From NCBI RefSeq assembly GCF_017876575.1, contig NZ_JAGIOE010000001.1, positions 2,976,001 to 3,040,000 of the forward strand: a DNA stretch of 64,000 nucleotides, read 5' to 3'. Of the stretch, positions 51,903 through 58,859 are shown piece by piece. The notes below the pieces were generated by a model that worked only from the letters and a program-made list of their open reading frames with translations, did not search any database and was not told where the DNA came from. Within the stretch, counting starts at the first letter, position 1. Every line of letters begins with the position of its first letter. This stretch comes from Paeniglutamicibacter psychrophenolicus (GTDB taxonomy: Bacteria > Actinomycetota > Actinomycetes > Actinomycetales > Micrococcaceae). Position numbers and translations under genes: made by a program.

Positions 51903-54419
51903 CTAGGAGGCCGGGACCACGTTGACCAGCTTCGGCGCGCGCACGATCACCTTGGCGACCGCCGCACCGTCGAGGCAGCGCACCACGGCCTCGTCCGCCA
52001 TGGCCAGCGCCTCGAGTTCCTCGGCCGTGATGTCCACCGAGACCTCCAGGCGGGCCCGGACCTTGCCCTTGATCTGCACCACGGCGGTGATGGTGTCCTC
52101 GATGAGCAGCGCCTCGTCGACGGCGGGCCATCCGGCGTTGGCGACCGAGGGCTCGTGCCCCAGGGCCGCCCACATGTCTTCGGCCGTGTACGGGGCGAAG
52201 AGCGAGAGGATGATCGCCACGGCCTCCGCGGCCTCGCGCACCGCCGGGTCGGCTGCGCCGGCACCGGAGTCGATGGCCTTGCGGGTCGCGTTGACCAGCT
52301 CCATGGTCTTGGCGATCACGACGTTGAACTTGCCGGTATCCAGCATGCCGGCGGCCTCGTGCACCGCCTTGTGGGTGACCGAGCGCAGCGCCTTGTCACC
52401 GGTGGCCGGGTCGGTCCCCGGTGCGCTGGAAACATCCTGGGCCATTCGCCAGGCGCGGGCCAGGAACTTCTGCGAACCCGAAGGGGAGACATCGGCCCAG
52501 TCCACGTCGTCCTCCGGCGGGGAGGCGAAGATCATGGTCAGGCGCACGGCGTCAACGCCGTACTTGTCCAGCTGCTCGCCCAAATCCACGCCGTTGCCCA
52601 GCGACTTGCTCATGGCCTTGCCGCCGTTGAGCACCTGGCCCTGGTTCAGCAGCGCGCTGAAGGGTTCGGTCACGTCGATCAGGCCCAGGTCGTGGATGAC
52701 CTTGGTGAAGAAGCGCGAGTAGAGCAGGTGCAGGATGGCGTGCTCGACGCCTCCCACGTACTGCCCGACCGGCATCCAGTCGCGCACCGCCTGCGGGTCA
52801 AACGGGCCCTCGGTGTAGTTCGGGGAGACGAAGCGCAGGAAGTACCAGGAAGAATCCACGAAGGTGTCCATGGTGTCGGTGTCGCGCTTGGCGTCGGTCC
52901 CGCACTTCGGGCACGGCACGTTGACCCAGTCGCTGGCCGCTGCCAACGGGCTGGTGCCCTTGGGGGCCAGGTCCTCGCCGCGCAGGTCGTCCGGCAGGCG
53001 CACCGGCAGCTGGTCATCCGGAACCGGGACCTCGCCGCATGTTTCGCAGTGGATGATCGGGATCGGGGTGCCCCAGAAACGCTGGCGGCTCAGCAGCCAG
53101 TCGCGCAGGCGGAAGTTCACGAACTTCTCGCCCGTGCCGGCGGCTTCGACGATCTCGATGGCGCGGGCAATGCCCTCGGCCTTCGGCAGCCCGTCCAGCT
53201 CGCCGGAGTTCACCAGGGTGCCCTCGCCGGCGGTGGCAATGCCGGTTTCGGCCGGATCCTCGGCGCCGGTGTCAACGACCACGCGCACCGGCAGGTGGAA
53301 GGTGCGGGCGAAGTCCAGGTCGCGCTGGTCGTGGGCGGGCACGGCCATGATCGCGCCGGTGCCGTATTCGGCCAGCACGTAGTCCGCGGCCCAGACCGGC
53401 AGCTTTTCCCCGTTGAGCGGGTTGATGGCGTAGCGACCGGTGAACACACCGGTCTTCTCGCGCTCGGTGGCCTGGCGCTCGATCTCGCTCAAGGCCTTGA
53501 CCTTGTCCTGGTACTCCTCCAGCGCCTGGCGGTGCTCCTCGGTGACCAGCTCGTTGGCCAGCTCGGCGTCGGCGGCGACCACGAAGAAGGTGGCGCCGTG
53601 CAGCGTGTCCGGGCGGGTGGTGAAGACCGTGGTCTTGTGTGCTTCCTGCGTGTCGGTGGCCTCGACGATGAAGTCGACGTGCGCGCCCTCGGAACGGCCG
53701 ATCCAGTTCTTCTGCATGGCCAGCACGCGCTCGGGCCAGTGCCCGTGCAGCGCGTCCATGTCATCGAGCAGGCGGTCGGCGTAGTCGGTGATCTTGAAAT
53801 ACCACTGGTTCAGCGACTTCTTGGTCACCGGGGTGCCGCAGCGTTCGCAGGCGCCGTTGACTACCTGCTCGTTGGCCAGCACGGTCTGGTCCTTCGGGCA
53901 CCAGTTCACCGGGTGGTTCTTGCGGTAGGCCAGGCCCTTTTCGTAGAAACGGGTGAACAGCCACTGGGTCCAGCGGTAGTACTCCGGGTCGGAGGTGTGG
54001 ATGCGGCGTTCCCAGTCGGCGGAGATCGCGTAGCGCTTGAAGCTGGCGGCCTGGGTGTCGATGTTGGCGTAGGTCCACTCCGAGGGGTGGGCGTTGCGCT
54101 TGATCGCGGCGTTCTCGGCGGGCAGCCCGAAGGAGTCCCAGCCGATCGGGTGCATCACGTCGTATCCCTGCTGGCGCCAGTAGCGGGCGACGACGTCTCC
54201 CATGGCGAAGGCCTCGGCGTGGCCCATGTGCAGGTCGCCGGAGGGGTACGGGAACATGTCCAACACGTAGCGGCGCTCGGCACTGCCGTCGTCCTTGGGC
54301 GTGAAGACCCCTAGTTCGTCCCACACCGGAGCCCATTTGGCTTCCATGTCCTGGAAGCTGTAGGCCGCTGCGGTGGAATCGTTGTCCGCGGTTTCGGTGC
54401 CGGTGGGCTGAGTGCTCAC
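51903..54419 (-). CDS. leuS: Leucyl-tRNA synthetase
   Basis: LeuS charges tRNA-Leu and edits mischarged norvaline and isoleucine. GTG 54419 gives 838 residues starting [20 protein letters not shown]. The class I motif HMGH is at 64-67 in [19 protein letters not shown]. The editing domain includes [19 protein letters not shown] zinc-type segment has [10 protein letters not shown] and [11 protein letters not shown]. The KMSKS loop reads [17 protein letters not shown] near 600. The reading frame extends upstream only as shadow of the attenuator. A leucine leader peptide and terminator lie just upstream (54518-54595), indicating attenuation control. Confidence 0.96.
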
Positions 54420-54517
54420 TATCGTGTTTCGCCTTCTTTTGTCGTGCGCCTGTGGGGGAACGTCTCTTGGCCAGCTGAGCCGAGTGGGTGTGCCTGGCGC
54501 AAATGCCCGTGACACAC

Positions 54518-54542
54518 AAAAGCCCCTTGGCAATCAAGGGGC
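54518..54542 (-). terminator. leuS attenuator terminator
   Basis: On the minus strand GCCCCTTG-ATTGC-CAAGGGGC is followed at once by TTTTGTG. This is a textbook intrinsic terminator lying 98 bp before the leuS start, inside its leader. A terminator placed before its own gene implies conditional read-through. Confidence 0.85.
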
Positions 54543-54544
54543 GG

Positions 54545-54568
54545 CCGTACGGGGAGTATCCCGTACGG
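54545..54568 (-). promoter_or_regulatory. leuS leader pause/antiterminator hairpin
   Basis: CCGTACGGG at the 5' side and CCCGTACGG at the 3' side form a perfect 9-bp stem directly after the leader-peptide stop codon and 2 nt before the terminator stem. A ribosome stalled on the leucine codons would cover its 5' arm, as in classical attenuators. The exact competing pairing with the terminator is inferred. Confidence 0.7.
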
Positions 54569-54595
54569 CTAGGTTAGCAAGAGCGCAACGTTCAT
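54569..54595 (-). CDS. Leucine leader peptide of leuS
   Basis: ATG 54593-54595 opens a nine-codon frame reading MNVALLLT and ending TAG at 54569. The three adjacent leucine codons are CTC, TTG and CTA, two of them uncommon in this genome. TAGAAT (a -10-like box) lies 7 nt before the ATG, so the transcript may begin at the start codon (leaderless), which explains the missing ribosome site. Hairpin and terminator follow immediately. Confidence 0.78.
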   Translation of the reverse strand: MNVALLLT

Positions 54596-54650
54596 GTCGC
54601 CAATTCTACCGCACGAACCGTGCGGGGTGCGGGTTCGTGTCCCGGCCCCC

Positions 54651-55163
54651 CTATTGGACGGGGCGGCGGTAGGCCGCCGAGTCGTCGTGGTGCAGCGGTC
54701 CCGCCGGTGCCGGACGCCGTCCCAGCCAGGCGATCGCTCCCAGCACCCCGATCACCGCATAGGTCGCCTCCGATGATGCCCCGTGCCACGCCACCCTTGC
54801 GGACAATGCCGGGTATTCGGTGTAGCTCGGGTCCATCCGGATGGCTTGCTGCACCTCGCTGGTTCCGAAGATGAGCACGCAGGCGGCCATCACGAGAGCC
54901 GCCGCCAGCACGGCCCCCACGCCTGCCGTGCGTTTGGACTGCAGGTGCGTTACGGCCCCGATGCCGGCAAGCACGACGGTCAGTGCGATCGCGGCACCGA
55001 ATTCCCAGCCGGCCCGCGGCATCATCACCGCGAAGGGTTGACCTCCCCAGTCCAGGCGCACGCCCCTGGACAGCCAGTCAAAATGCATTCCCAGGTAGCC
55101 CAGCAGCGCGAACAGCACGAAACCCGCTGCCGCCCCGCCAAGAATCCGCACCAATGCCCGCAT
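54651..55163 (-). CDS. Small membrane protein, unknown function
   Basis: This is a 170-residue protein I do not recognise. ATG 55163 opens MRALVRILGGAAAGFVLFAL, the first of four membrane segments; others lie at about 52-70, 82-102 and 135-150. The loop DPSYTEYPALSARVAW between the third and fourth segments is hydrophilic and probably outside. The C-terminus (PLHHDDSAAYRRPVQ) is cytoplasmic. The frame extends upstream without support. It lies between glpK and leuS and shows no enzyme motif. Confidence 0.7.
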   Translation of the reverse strand: MRALVRILGGAAAGFVLFALLGYLGMHFDWLSRGVRLDWGGQPFAVMMPRAGWEFGAAIALTVVLAGIGAVTHLQSKRTAGVGAVLAAALVMAACVLIFGTSEVQQAIRMDPSYTEYPALSARVAWHGASSEATYAVIGVLGAIAWLGRRPAPAGPLHHDDSAAYRRPVQ

Positions 55164-55359
55164 GCCTTGCCCGCCTGTCCGTGCGGCTTCCTGCCCGCAG
55201 GGGCGGAAGCGTGGGTGGGCCCGAACGCCGAAGTATGCGGGCCGAAGTTCCTTCCACCCTAGCCACGGGTGCATCTCGCGGGGCGTTTTGGCCCACAACG
55301 TTATGCAGCCGAGACGCTGCGGCGCCGGCCTGCACGATGTGGCTGCCCACGAAAGGCGA

Positions 55360-56874
55360 TTAGCGCACGTCCTGGTCGACCCAGTCGAAGGTGCGGGTGA
55401 CGGCCTTCTTCCACAGGCGCATCTGTCGCTCGCGTTCGGCCGGGGCCATGGCAGGTTCCCAGCGCTTGTCCTCGGACCAGTTGGCCTCGAGCTCCCCGAG
55501 GTCCTTCCAGAACCCCACGGCCAGCCCGGCGGCGTAGGCCGCTCCCAGCGCCGTGGTCTCGGTGACCGTCGGGCGGATGACCGGGACCCCGAGCAGGTCG
55601 GCCTGGAACTGCATGAGCGCATCGTTGGCCACCATCCCGCCATCGACCTTCAGCTCGGTCAGCGGAACCGCAGCGTCCGCGTTGACAGCGTCGAGCACCT
55701 CGCGGACCTGGAACGCCGTGGCCTCCAGCGCAGCCCGGGCGATGTGGTGCTTGTTGGCGAAGCGGGTCAGCCCGACGATGGCCCCGCGGGCCTCGGCGCG
55801 CCAGTACGGGGCGAAGAGCCCGGAGAAGGCCGGGACGATGTACACCCCGCCGTTGTCCACCACGCCCGCGGCCAGGGTTTCGACCTCGGCGGCGGTGGAG
55901 ATCATGCCGATGTTGTCGCGCAGCCACTGGATGAGGGATCCGGCCACGGCGATCGATCCCTCCAGCGCGTAGACCGGGTCCGCGTCGCCGAGCTTGTAGC
56001 CCACCGTGGTCAGCAGCCCGTTCTTGGAGCGGACGATTTCTTCGCCGGTGTTGAAGATCAAAAAGCAGCCGGTGCCGTAGGTGTTTTTCGCCTCCCCTGC
56101 GCCGAAGGCCGCCTGCCCGAAGGTTGCTGCCTGCTGGTCGCCCAGGATCCCGGCGACCGGCACCTCGCGCAAGAGCTGCGAGGAGGCCACCTTTCCGTAG
56201 ACCTCGGAGGAGGACTTGATGGCCGGCAGCATCGAGGCGGGCACCCCGAAGTCAGCGAGGATCTCCTCGTCCCAGGCCAGGGTCGCCAGGTCCATGAACA
56301 TGGTGCGCGAGGCGTTGGTGACATCGGTGATGTGCACCCCGCCGTCGGTTCCGCCGGTGAGGTTCCAGGTGACCCACGAGTCGGTGTTGCCGAAGAGCAG
56401 GTCCCCGGCCTCGGCGCGTTCGCGCGCCCCGGCGACGTTGTCAAGGATCCACTTGACCTTGGTGCCGGAGAAGTAGGGGGCCAGCGGCAGCCCGGTGCGT
56501 TGCCTGTACCGCTCCGTCCCGCCGTCGGCGGCCAATGACCGGACGATGTCCTGGGTGCGGGTATCCTGCCAGACAATCGCGTTGTAGACCGGTTCGCCGG
56601 TGTGCCGGTCCCACACCACGGTGGTTTCGCGCTGGTTGGTGATCCCGACCGCCGCGATGTCGTGCCGGGTGAGGTTGCCCCCGGCCAATGCAACGGCGAT
56701 GACCTCCCGCACGTTCCGCCAGATCTCGAGCGCGTCGTGCTCCACCCAGCCGGGGTGCGGGAAGATCTGCGCGTGCTCCATTTGCCCGGTGGAGGCAACG
56801 GTGCCCGCATGGTCAAAGACGATGGCGCGGGAACTGGTGGTTCCCTGGTCGATCGCGATGACGTACTGGTTCAT
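55360..56874 (-). CDS. glpK: Glycerol kinase
   Basis: GlpK phosphorylates glycerol to sn-glycerol-3-phosphate. ATG 56874 gives 504 residues, the usual length. The FGGY-kinase phosphate loop is [13 protein letters not shown] at 9-21. Catalytic Asp is expected in [16 protein letters not shown] and [15 protein letters not shown]-terminal FGGY signature [20 protein letters not shown] follows. The product is a direct substrate for the upstream GlpD. The two genes lie 93 bp apart on one strand, glpD first. No glpF facilitator is seen here. Confidence 0.95.
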
Positions 56875-56967
56875 GGCGGTGCCTTTCAGCGTCGGATGGG
56901 GGCGGTAAGGCGGGATCGGAGATGTGCGGGGAGCCAAGGCGGCCGCGCCGCCTCCCTGGGCGACGCC

Positions 56968-58674
56968 CTACGCGTTGGACAGCGCCGGGCGCGCCCCGTG
57001 GTCCTCGGTGAGCACGCGGCGGCACTCGGCGACCTGCGCGGCGGCCTGGCCCTGGTCCCAACCAAGCACCGAGGCCAGGGCCTCGGCGACCTGTTCGAGC
57101 AGTTCGCCGGTGACCAGCCCGCGGAAGGCCAGCGAGGTGCGCCGGATGAACACGTCGGCCAGCGATCCCAGGTGTTCGTGGGTGCCCAGGTAGGCAAGTT
57201 CGGCAGCGGAGAGTTCGTCGCTGGCCGGCAGCGTCGGGTCATCGGGCCCGATGAACTCCAGCACCGTGTCGGCCCGGGTGCCGTAGCGCTCCAGCAACAC
57301 CTCGAGCCTGCGGCGTCCGGCCAGCGGGGCGCGGGCGGCAAACCAGGCCTCGAGCGCGGCGGGGGTGCCGGGGTAGTTCCGCCCTCCCCCGATGGGCAGG
57401 TTCCTGGTGGTGGGCCCCGGTGCCACGCCGAGCTCGGCCAGCACCTTCTTGCCCAGGGTCTCCCCCAGCGCGCGGAACGTCGTCCACTTCCCGCCGACCA
57501 GCGACAGCTCGGTGGTGCCTCCGGGAAGCGCCGTGCGTTCGATGCGGTAATCGCGGGAGACGAAGCCGGGGGCGGTGTCGTCGTGGCGCGGCAACGGGCG
57601 CACGCCGGAGAACCTGTAGACGATGTCTTCCTCGCGCACCTCGATGGACGGGAAGACGTGCCGGACCAGGTCGAAGAAGTACGCCACCTCCGCATCGGTG
57701 CAGCGTGCCGGCACGCCCATGTCCGCGTCGATGTCGGTGGTGCCCACCAGCACCCGGTCCCCCAGCGGGTAGATCAACACGATCCGCCCGTCGGAGTGCT
57801 CGAAGAAGATCTCCCGCCCGCCGCAGGCCTCGAGCAGGCCCAGGTGGTCAAGCACGATGTGGCTGCCCTTGGTCCCGCCCATGAAATTGCTGGCGGTGCC
57901 GATGGCCTCGTTGGTCAGATCCACCCAGGCGCCGGTCGCGTTGACCAGCACGTCGGCGTCGAAGTCGAATTCCTCCCCGGTGAGCTCGTCGCGCAGCCGT
58001 GCACCGTCGACACCGAATCCGGCCAGCGAGACGTAGTTGCTGGCCCGGGCGTGCGGGTTGGCCTCCAACCCGTCGCGCAGCACATCCAGGGTGAGGCGCT
58101 CGGGATTGTGCACCGAGGCATCGAAGTAGGTGGCCGTGTACTTCACATCCCCGCGCAGCAGCGGCAGCTGCGCCAGCGAGGCCTTGGCCCCGCGGAACTT
58201 GTGCCACGGGGTGTTGCGCCCCACGGCCCCGGCAAAAACGTCGTAGAGCACCAGCCCGGCCTTGATCAGCACCGCACCGCGCTCGGTGGTGGTGGAGCTG
58301 CGGTGGGTGAGGAAGCGCATGGGGGCCGAGAGGATCCCGGAGAAGGTGGAGAAGATCGGGATGGTGGTGCGCAGCGGCTTGACGTAGTGCGGGGCGATCT
58401 CCAGCAGCCGGTTGCGTTCCTGCACGGACTCGTGGACCAGGCGGAACTCGCCGTTTTCCAGGTAGCGGATGCCGCCGTGGATCATGTGCGAGGAGGCTCC
58501 CGAGGCGCCCTGGCAGTAGTCCCCGCGCTCCACCAGCGCCACGTCCACGCCCTGCATGGCCAGGTAGCGGAAGGTCGCCACGCCGTTGATGCCGCCGCCA
58601 ACGATGAGGACCTTGGCTCCGGGCCGGGCGCGCAGCGCGGCCAGTTCGGATCGGTGGGACGCTGTGGCTGCCAC
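56968..58674 (-). CDS. glpD: FAD-dependent glycerol-3-phosphate dehydrogenase
   Basis: GlpD is a membrane-associated flavoenzyme oxidising glycerol-3-phosphate to dihydroxyacetone phosphate and feeding electrons to quinone. GTG 58674 with AAGGA upstream gives 568 residues; ATG 58737 would add 21 unconserved residues. The FAD loop is KVLIVGGGINGVATFRYLAM at about 22-41. GDYCQGASGASSHMIHGGIR at about 51-70 and RVLVGTTDIDAD are typical. The DAO_C domain from about 405 begins near LLERYGTRADTVLEFI. It forms an operon with glpK. Confidence 0.94.
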   Translation of the reverse strand: MAATASHRSELAALRARPGAKVLIVGGGINGVATFRYLAMQGVDVALVERGDYCQGASGASSHMIHGGIRYLENGEFRLVHESVQERNRLLEIAPHYVKPLRTTIPIFSTFSGILSAPMRFLTHRSSTTTERGAVLIKAGLVLYDVFAGAVGRNTPWHKFRGAKASLAQLPLLRGDVKYTATYFDASVHNPERLTLDVLRDGLEANPHARASNYVSLAGFGVDGARLRDELTGEEFDFDADVLVNATGAWVDLTNEAIGTASNFMGGTKGSHIVLDHLGLLEACGGREIFFEHSDGRIVLIYPLGDRVLVGTTDIDADMGVPARCTDAEVAYFFDLVRHVFPSIEVREEDIVYRFSGVRPLPRHDDTAPGFVSRDYRIERTALPGGTTELSLVGGKWTTFRALGETLGKKVLAELGVAPGPTTRNLPIGGGRNYPGTPAALEAWFAARAPLAGRRRLEVLLERYGTRADTVLEFIGPDDPTLPASDELSAAELAYLGTHEHLGSLADVFIRRTSLAFRGLVTGELLEQVAEALASVLGWDQGQAAAQVAECRRVLTEDHGARPALSNA

Positions 58675-58859
58675 GATGGGGCCATCCTTCGGTGTTGCAG
58701 TGGGCGTAAAGCGTGCTTCACATGGTCTTCTCGACATTACCGGGGCGCGGGTGCCGGTGCCTAGCCCACGGGGTGAAGCGTAAGCGAATCGTTGCCGATC
58801 CCCGGTGGAACCCGGAGCCTCGCAGCCGCGCGTCCCGCGGCCCGGGATAGGCTGGGAAC

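Follow-up and report, generated by a model that had tools for sequence, protein, structure and literature searches.

What controls leuS, the leucyl-tRNA synthetase gene of Paeniglutamicibacter psychrophenolicus, in front of which a very short leucine-rich reading frame and two hairpins are found? We followed this question in a stretch of 64,000 nucleotides (contig NZ_JAGIOE010000001.1, positions 2,976,001 to 3,040,000), which is called the window and in whose own numbering all coordinates are given. The first-pass annotation of the window had read the region as a leucine leader peptide followed by an intrinsic terminator, and our analysis bears this out, the arrangement being kept in relatives. 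It had also regarded a synthetase gene under leader-peptide control as less familiar, while leuS attenuators had in fact already been published for Streptomyces (PMC1262725, PMC8079986). Such attenuators, with antiterminators, were predicted in 2005 for S. coelicolor and S. avermitilis, as reported in PMC1262725, and the S. lividans leader LeuL2, with the peptide MRAVRLLLSEPR, is described in PMC8079986 as an RNA-seq-mapped, leaderless frame upstream of leuS with a hairpin and U run behind it. For Arthrobacter and its relatives no leuS attenuator appeared in the titles or abstract openings of open-licence PMC papers among the matches listed.

Organisation of the leuS leader in the window

All parts of the element lie on the minus strand. 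The leuS gene (51903..54419) starts with GTG at 54419 and was identified by TIGR00396 (969.5 bits; cut-off 548.4). Upstream of it the sequence holds the leader frame (54569..54595), which has eight codons and a stop (ATG AAC GTT GCG CTC TTG CTA ACC TAG, read from 54595 to 54569), encodes MNVALLLT and occurs in conserved form in relatives. The three adjacent leucine codons that had been noticed at first pass are present as CTC (54583-54581), TTG (54580-54578) and CTA (54577-54575), together 54575..54583, and the last of them starts 8 nt ahead of the first base of hairpin 1. This hairpin (54544..54569), supported by folding and by covariation, was found directly after the frame as the first-pass annotation had it; its length was given there as 9 bp and is 10 pairs (54569-54560 with 54553-54544), because the G of the TAG stop codon, which is the first base of the hairpin, pairs too. 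After a spacer of one nucleotide comes the intrinsic terminator hairpin (54522..54542; 54542-54535 with 54529-54522), an 8-bp stem that is followed in the sequence by the T run TTTT (54518..54521). This stem and tail ahead of leuS, also noticed earlier, were recovered by a terminator scan and by folding, and the stem is supported by covariation as well. The GTG of leuS is reached 98 nt beyond the end of the T run.

A −10-like hexamer, TAGAAT (54603..54608), is seen in the sequence and ends 7 nt ahead of the leader ATG, so the transcript probably starts at or beside this ATG and is leaderless. Against this, a sigma-70 scan of positions 53800-55200 returned no promoter-like site, and no −35 box was recognised. 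Immediately 5' of the hexamer lies the inverted repeat CACGAACC-N12-GGTTCGTG (54612-54639, minus strand). It was considered as an operator over the promoter region and dropped because it is perfect only in the window and in locus L168; one mismatch is found in L169 and L170, the repeat is degraded in L164 and it is absent in L165-L167. Further upstream on the same strand (54651-58737) are a glycerol-3-phosphate dehydrogenase-like gene, the glycerol kinase gene glpK and a frame with hydrophobic stretches. The latter ends at 54651, 55 nt 5' of the leader ATG, and therefore its transcript would also meet the terminator.

The 96-nt leader has a folding energy of −45 kcal/mol (z = −5.34), which none of 200 shuffles reached, and three consecutive leucines within seven codons are expected with a probability of about 0.004 at the leucine frequency of the window. 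Conservation across relatives is a stronger test than either figure.

Both hairpins are conserved by compensatory change

A search with the LeuS of the window gathered at least 80 leuS loci. From 57 leader stretches, one of which (from L052) was a false candidate, we built alignment A1 of 41 sequences, with Glutamicibacter-like and irregular stretches excluded, and A1 served as the source of the covariance model R1. Comparison of leuS upstream regions of relatives, which the first-pass annotation had proposed, finds both the leucine codons and the hairpins conserved. Across the two hairpins of A1, 91.8% of cells are paired and 8 of 17 pairs are changed on both sides, in 6 of 9 pairs of hairpin 1 and in 2 of 8 pairs of the terminator. 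Two-sided changes amount to 37 cells against 6.9 in shuffles, and none of 500 shuffles was as high on these three measures. RNAalifold recovers both helices on its own. The T run is nearly invariant, with T in 41/41 sequences at columns 153 and 155 and in 40/41 at columns 152 and 154. Within the genus of the window, two pairs of hairpin 1 have switched type with pairing retained between the window and L166, and L164 carries one mismatch in this hairpin. The distance between hairpin 1 and the terminator is also tightly held: among 87 leaders it is 1 nt in 74, 2 nt in 10 and 0 nt in 3. Directly 3' of the T run, past the expected termination point, the window has GTGTGTC (54511-54517, minus strand), a stretch that hardly varies among the Arthrobacter-type rows of A1, where it usually reads GTGTGTCCGGGG.

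The leader is widespread in the family and the class

At E ≤ 0.01, R1 matched 57 of the 80 leuS loci listed, 40 of these being rows on which the model had been trained, with the weakest matches at L008-L012. The other 23 of 80 had no match at E ≤ 1, one of them (L055) having merely 75 nt of upstream sequence. Among the loci listed, every Arthrobacter, Pseudarthrobacter, Paenarthrobacter, Sinomonas and Zafaria locus is positive, as are Nocardioides and Actinomadura loci; Kocuria, Rothia, Micrococcus and Yaniella are among the negative ones.

Whole-genome searches gave positive results for 83 of 149 sampled genomes and 19 of 32 genera in the family; the remaining 66 of 149 genomes had no match, and the leader is thus not universal. 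The position of the matches is almost always the same: 83 of 86 sit, in the same orientation, 73-185 nt 5' of a leuS family match. Weak scores (E 2e-4 to 7e-4) mark the remaining three: L161 and L162 lie upstream of acetolactate synthase genes (gene family searched for L162, judged by eye for L161), and L163 covers a stretch that looks tRNA-like by eye. Leucine-leader control of a synthetase gene had been described for a few Streptomyces; in the class, R1 matched 176 of the 394 genomes (74 of the 138 genera sampled), the position at leuS having been checked for part of them. Among the 26 new class loci checked (L125-L150), LeuS-coding DNA follows directly downstream in 25; at the exception, L140, which is near a contig end, there was no LeuS match. 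Both 83/149 and 176/394 are lower bounds, since searches of more than 40 genomes filter more strictly and lose weak matches. In the genome of the window the leuS leader is the sole strong match (2.7e-23, the window being part of the training set; next best 0.19), and the leader is present in all seven other genomes sampled from the genus. The breadth of the leuS leader beyond Streptomyces is new here.

A leucine codon stands at a fixed distance from hairpin 1

Codons were counted in 93 leaders with a reading frame out of 96 R1 matches (92 without L153, the leader of an ilvB gene). A frame of the form sought, which had to follow a TAnnnT motif by 4-9 nt, was absent in L155, L158 and L160, all of them before genes other than leuS. 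The spacing from TAnnnT to the start is 6 nt in 77 leaders, 7 nt in 13, 5 nt in 2 and 8 nt in 1. MRAILLLS, MHNFLLLT, MFAQLLLI, MRRTLLLT and MRPRLLLSPPR, each ended by a stop codon, are examples of the peptides in relatives. Codons 2-4 vary and the leucine codons are conserved with synonymous change.

A leucine codon starts exactly 8 nt 5' of hairpin 1 in 89 of the 93 leaders, and leucine codons stand at −14 in 80/93 and at −11 in 77/93; these are counts of related sequences, not of independent events, and the number of leucines is favoured because the frame richest in leucine codons was picked for each leader. In the rows outside R1 training the −8 codon is leucine in 49 of 52. It is CTT in 71, CTA in 12, CTC in 5 and CTG in 1, that is CTT or CTA in 83 of 89. 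Among the 34 likely genes of the window, by contrast, leucine is encoded by CTG in 61% of cases and by CTT plus CTA in 8% (CTA 1.4%), and in the leuS genes of 76 loci the corresponding figures are 68% and 4.5%. The −14 and −11 codons are mostly CTG, CTC or CTT.

The stop codon begins at −2 relative to hairpin 1 in 61 of the 93 leaders, at +7 in 26 and elsewhere in 6, and the terminator sets in at a median of 26 nt after the stop (range 6-61). For amino-acid attenuators it is stated that a distance of over 20 bp between leader gene and terminator spares the latter from block by a ribosome at the stop codon (PMC4824070), and most leuS leaders analysed here keep this distance. The strict geometry of codon, hairpin and terminator is new here.

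The Glutamicibacter-like group departs from this pattern, its leucine run being reduced to a single CTA in L008-L011, to CTA-CTC in L017 and to none in L012. Two hairpins or the terminator persist in L008-L012 and L017, and L012 retains two hairpins with zero leucine codons. By their sequences these leaders look as if the switch were eroding or had been retuned.

No conserved antiterminator found in the leuS leaders

The first-pass annotation had called the arrangement the full layout of a ribosome-mediated transcription attenuator. In the sense of a classical attenuator this claim is not supported, as 87 leaders show no conserved competing antiterminator and E. coli trpL and leuL do show one. 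Pairing was computed with a ribosome placed at defined positions, assuming that 12-13 nt are shielded from the first base of the A-site codon; E. coli trpL and leuL and shuffled sequences served as controls. Nine of the 96 matches were excluded, namely L155, L158, L160 and L012 together with L008-L011 and L017, which have gaps in stem columns.

Without a ribosome, the terminator falls below a probability of 0.8 in 2 of 87 leaders. The five basal pairs of hairpin 1 have a median probability of 1.00 with the ribosome at −14 (n=87), of 0.00 at −8 (n=87) and of 0.00 at the stop codon (n=86). Pairing of the 5' arm of the terminator with upstream RNA before its 3' arm is made has medians of 0.00 at −14, 0.24 at −8 and 0.30 at the stop, and it exceeds 0.5 in 11 of 87 leaders stalled at −8 and in 14 of 86 at the stop. 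As the rise is equally large at the stop, this pairing cannot tell a stall from completion of the peptide. By the same measure stall and stop are well separated in E. coli trpL and leuL, with 0.71-0.75 for the former and about 0.01 for the latter. This pairing before the 3' arm is the sole informative measure, since in the E. coli controls, too, the full-length terminator at the stall is still formed with 0.96-1.00. The leuS sequences pair upstream less than shuffled ones do (0.28 against 0.44) and exceed their own shuffles in 17 of 87 leaders, a control that is weak even for E. coli, where 28 and 23 of 200 shuffles were as high.

Individual leaders were also folded with the ribosome set at various points, and leaders were folded as they stand before synthesis of the terminator's 3' arm; no conserved antiterminator came out among the folds listed. 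A scan of A1 for conserved alternative helices found no competitor beyond 4-5 pairs. The in-transcript alternatives were CAUGN/GUGUG (5 pairs, 0.92), AGCC/GGCU (4 pairs, 0.98), GCGG/UUGU (4 pairs, 0.96, mostly G-U) and codons 4-5 with GGGG or AGGG (4 pairs, 0.87-0.88), all judged too weak to displace the terminator. The E. coli leaders resemble the leuS leaders in having a peptide with regulatory codons ahead of a terminator, and they are not leaderless; in the pairing test they have a stall-dependent antiterminator, which the leuS leaders do not. In these models, then, a classical antiterminator is not seen in leuS leaders, a contrast with the E. coli controls that is new here; among the predicted structures, hairpin 1 alone responds consistently to the position of the ribosome.

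A probable leucine-gated attenuator and its rivals

From its sequence and conservation we consider it probable that the element is a leucine-gated, ribosome-mediated transcription attenuator, through which leuS would be expressed according to how much charged leucine-tRNA is available. Transcription would begin at the leader ATG, as is suggested by the promoter spacing and by the S. lividans counterpart being reported as leaderless, and a ribosome would start there immediately. When leucine-tRNA is ample, the ribosome would clear the leucine codons, finish the peptide and depart; hairpin 1 and the abutting terminator would then fold side by side, and many transcripts would stop before leuS. 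When leucine-tRNA is scarce, the ribosome would pause on the leucine codons, chiefly on the rare one at −8, where its footprint of 12-13 nt would hide just the five basal bases of the 5' arm of hairpin 1. So masked, hairpin 1 would fail to form, the terminator, whose T run is short, would be weaker, and polymerase would continue into leuS. What the analysis shows are the parts, their conservation, their geometry and the predicted dependence of hairpin 1 on the ribosome; that the ribosome stalls, that polymerase reads through and which way hairpin 1 acts on termination are steps that we infer.

For attenuation as such we count the leucine codons kept with synonymous change, the rare codons at −8, the covarying hairpins, the near-constant place upstream of leuS and the LeuL2 peptide in three matched loci. 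The M. tuberculosis ilvB1 leader with its branched-chain amino acid codons speaks for it too, a change of LVVI to AAAA being reported to have abolished the drug-induced response there (PMC13236596). Against it we count that altering candidate regulatory codons in S. coelicolor ilvB was reportedly without effect, as told in PMC1262725, that no conserved antiterminator was found, that 66 of 149 family genomes and 23 of 80 loci gave no match, and that L008-L011 are left with a single leucine codon and L012 with none.

The direction of the effect is the weakest step, and given an attenuator we see about an even chance that a stall masks hairpin 1 and thereby weakens termination. We lean to this polarity for two reasons: hairpin 1 would be masked by a stall at the very codon that is best conserved and rarest, and in M. 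smegmatis two hairpins in tandem are stated to be better terminators than one (PMC8355165); L008-L011, which retain solely the −8 codon, as CTA, are counted in its favour. Against it stands that a ribosome at the stop codon, with the same footprint, masks hairpin 1 too, and that 26 of 93 leaders have a frame reaching into hairpin 1, with its stop at +7, a position more in keeping with the opposite polarity.

One could argue that the switch works just the other way round. A ribosome stalled on leucine codons would leave hairpin 1 standing, hairpin 1 would hinder the lowest pairs of the terminator in the exit channel and so cause read-through, and a ribosome at the stop codon would melt hairpin 1 and let termination proceed. 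We regard this as a possible, though less probable, alternative. It is favoured by the stop codons, which at −2 (61) or +7 (26 of 93) place the terminating ribosome over the 5' arm of hairpin 1, by the base of hairpin 1, whose median probability is 1.00 (n=87) for a ribosome at −14 but 0.00 (n=86) for one at the stop, and by the strict abutment of 0-2 nt in 87/87 leaders. The 5-nt gap from the −8 codon to hairpin 1 resembles the spacing to frameshift-stimulating hairpins and counts on the same side. The steric argument itself, however, is our own reasoning, and the most conserved and rarest codon, at −8, is where a footprint of 12-13 nt masks hairpin 1. From the literature we count in its favour the scheme proposed for M. 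tuberculosis ilvB1, where a ribosome at the stop codon masks a structure that opposes the terminator (PMC13236596), and against it the superiority of tandem hairpins claimed for M. smegmatis (PMC8355165). Classical strand exchange, in which a stall would free the 3' arm of hairpin 1 for pairing with the 5' arm of the terminator, seems unlikely to us. Leader peptide, hairpin 1 and terminator are arranged as in trp-type attenuators, antiterminator hairpins are reported for Streptomyces leuS leaders (PMC1262725), and upstream pairing does climb from 0.00 at −14 to 0.24 at −8, passing 0.5 in 11/87 leaders; but it rises equally at the stop (0.30; above 0.5 in 14/86), the E. coli leaders separate the two states (0.71-0.75 against about 0.01), shuffled sequences pair more than real ones (0.44 against 0.28) and no conserved helix exceeds 4-5 pairs.

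It is quite improbable that the locus carries no regulation, the terminator being an ordinary one of the upstream gene that happens to stand beside a promoter and a small frame conserved by chance. The same-strand frame that ends at 54651, 55 nt 5' of the leader ATG, would suit this explanation, but a promoter-like hexamer lies between that frame and the terminator, it is leuS that follows the element throughout the family and in 25 of the 26 class loci examined, and the leucine codons are retained synonymously while codons 2-4 vary. That leuS is preceded by a T-box or some other known riboswitch deserves hardly any credit in our view. T-boxes are reported to control the majority of synthetase genes in Firmicutes (PMC1262725), but no Rfam 15 family reached its cut-off anywhere in the window, and at E ≤ 10 the region 54400-54700 gave two weak hits, which are to unrelated families and lie on the opposite strand. 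Rfam 15 accordingly offers no model that recognises the leuS leader in the window.

Returning to the leucine-gated attenuator, the fixed spacing of codon and hairpin together with the absent antiterminator poses a puzzle, namely how termination is controlled without rearrangement of the terminator. We tentatively suggest, with some doubt, an actinomycete kind of attenuator without strand exchange. The arms of the terminator would keep their partners, the sole element under control of the ribosome would be a hairpin abutting the terminator by 0-2 nt, and this neighbour alone would tune termination, on a plan that would be common to leuS leaders and, less strictly, to those of ilvB. With a regulatory codon fixed 8 nt before the hairpin, the ribosome would then read amino-acid supply by opening or sparing the neighbouring hairpin.

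Relation to described leaders and to two LeuS lineages

By its sequence the element of the window is of the described Streptomyces-type leuS leader kind, given that leuS attenuators of Streptomyces are published and that R1 finds leaders with the LeuL2 peptide. The matches L135, L148 and L149 encode exactly MRAVRLLLSEPR, with E values per genome of 6e-20, 2.6e-17 and 3.5e-17; the alignment of R1 has no MRAVRLLLSEPR row, and the link to Streptomyces rests on the identical peptide. Like the window leader, LeuL2 combines a leucine-rich peptide, a hairpin and a U run upstream of leuS, and its leaderless start would have a counterpart in the window if transcription begins there at the leader ATG. 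The differences are that the window peptide has 8 residues and LeuL2 has 12, that the window frame stops at the base of hairpin 1 whereas frames of the LeuL2 type stop inside it, that L135, L148 and L149, unlike the window, precede the other LeuS lineage, and that the antiterminator reported in 2005 for Streptomyces was not found in the leaders analysed here.

Actinobacterial ilvB leaders, as described for M. tuberculosis ilvB1 (PMC13236596) and S. lividans ilvL (PMC8079986), likewise have branched-chain codons, a hairpin and an abutting terminator. They differ in having valine, isoleucine and leucine codons, another target gene and weaker R1 matches. Cross-matches of R1 before acetolactate synthase (ilvB-type) genes were L153, L158 and L160 (E 1e-7 to 2e-10) and L161 and L162 (2e-4 and 5e-4), and a partial one, L155 (7e-8), has a citramalate synthase gene downstream; the genes were assigned by family search for L158, L162 and L155 and by eye for L153, L160 and L161. 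That the leuS model cross-matches these leaders indicates that the two-hairpin plan is shared with them. The genome of the window has an ilvB leader of its own (L090, G000:C1:2551667-2551829), upstream of the gene in L173, with the frame MHNRTVLLVIKR and its stop codon (by eye), a GCGC stem and a terminator; R1 matches it only at E 0.46. A further described leader, the LEU element of actinobacterial leuA, is a pseudoknot whose base stem is reported to pair leucine codons with the Shine-Dalgarno box of leuA (PMC1262725). The element of the window differs in standing at leuS, with a terminator between leader and gene.

Actinobacterial T-boxes were reported only before ileS in the 2005 survey (PMC1262725), and the leuS leader may therefore be a main actinobacterial control route for leucine. 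R1 may also serve as a marker of leucine-responsive genes, and it reveals two divergent LeuS lineages under the same element. The LeuS proteins of 24 loci, compared with that of the window over up to 450 residues, fall into two groups. The first, with 14 loci, is 61-88% identical to LeuS of the window and 45-50% to that of L148. The second, with L148 itself, L130, L133, L135, L137, L143, L146, L149 and L152, is 64-85% identical to LeuS of L148 and 45-54% to that of the window; LeuS of L139 was too short for placement. The leader stands before both lineages, which is new here, and one genome (G356) has both genes (L151 and L152), each with its own leader. To judge from the sequences, a second leuS would either have been placed under the existing control element or have carried the element with it.
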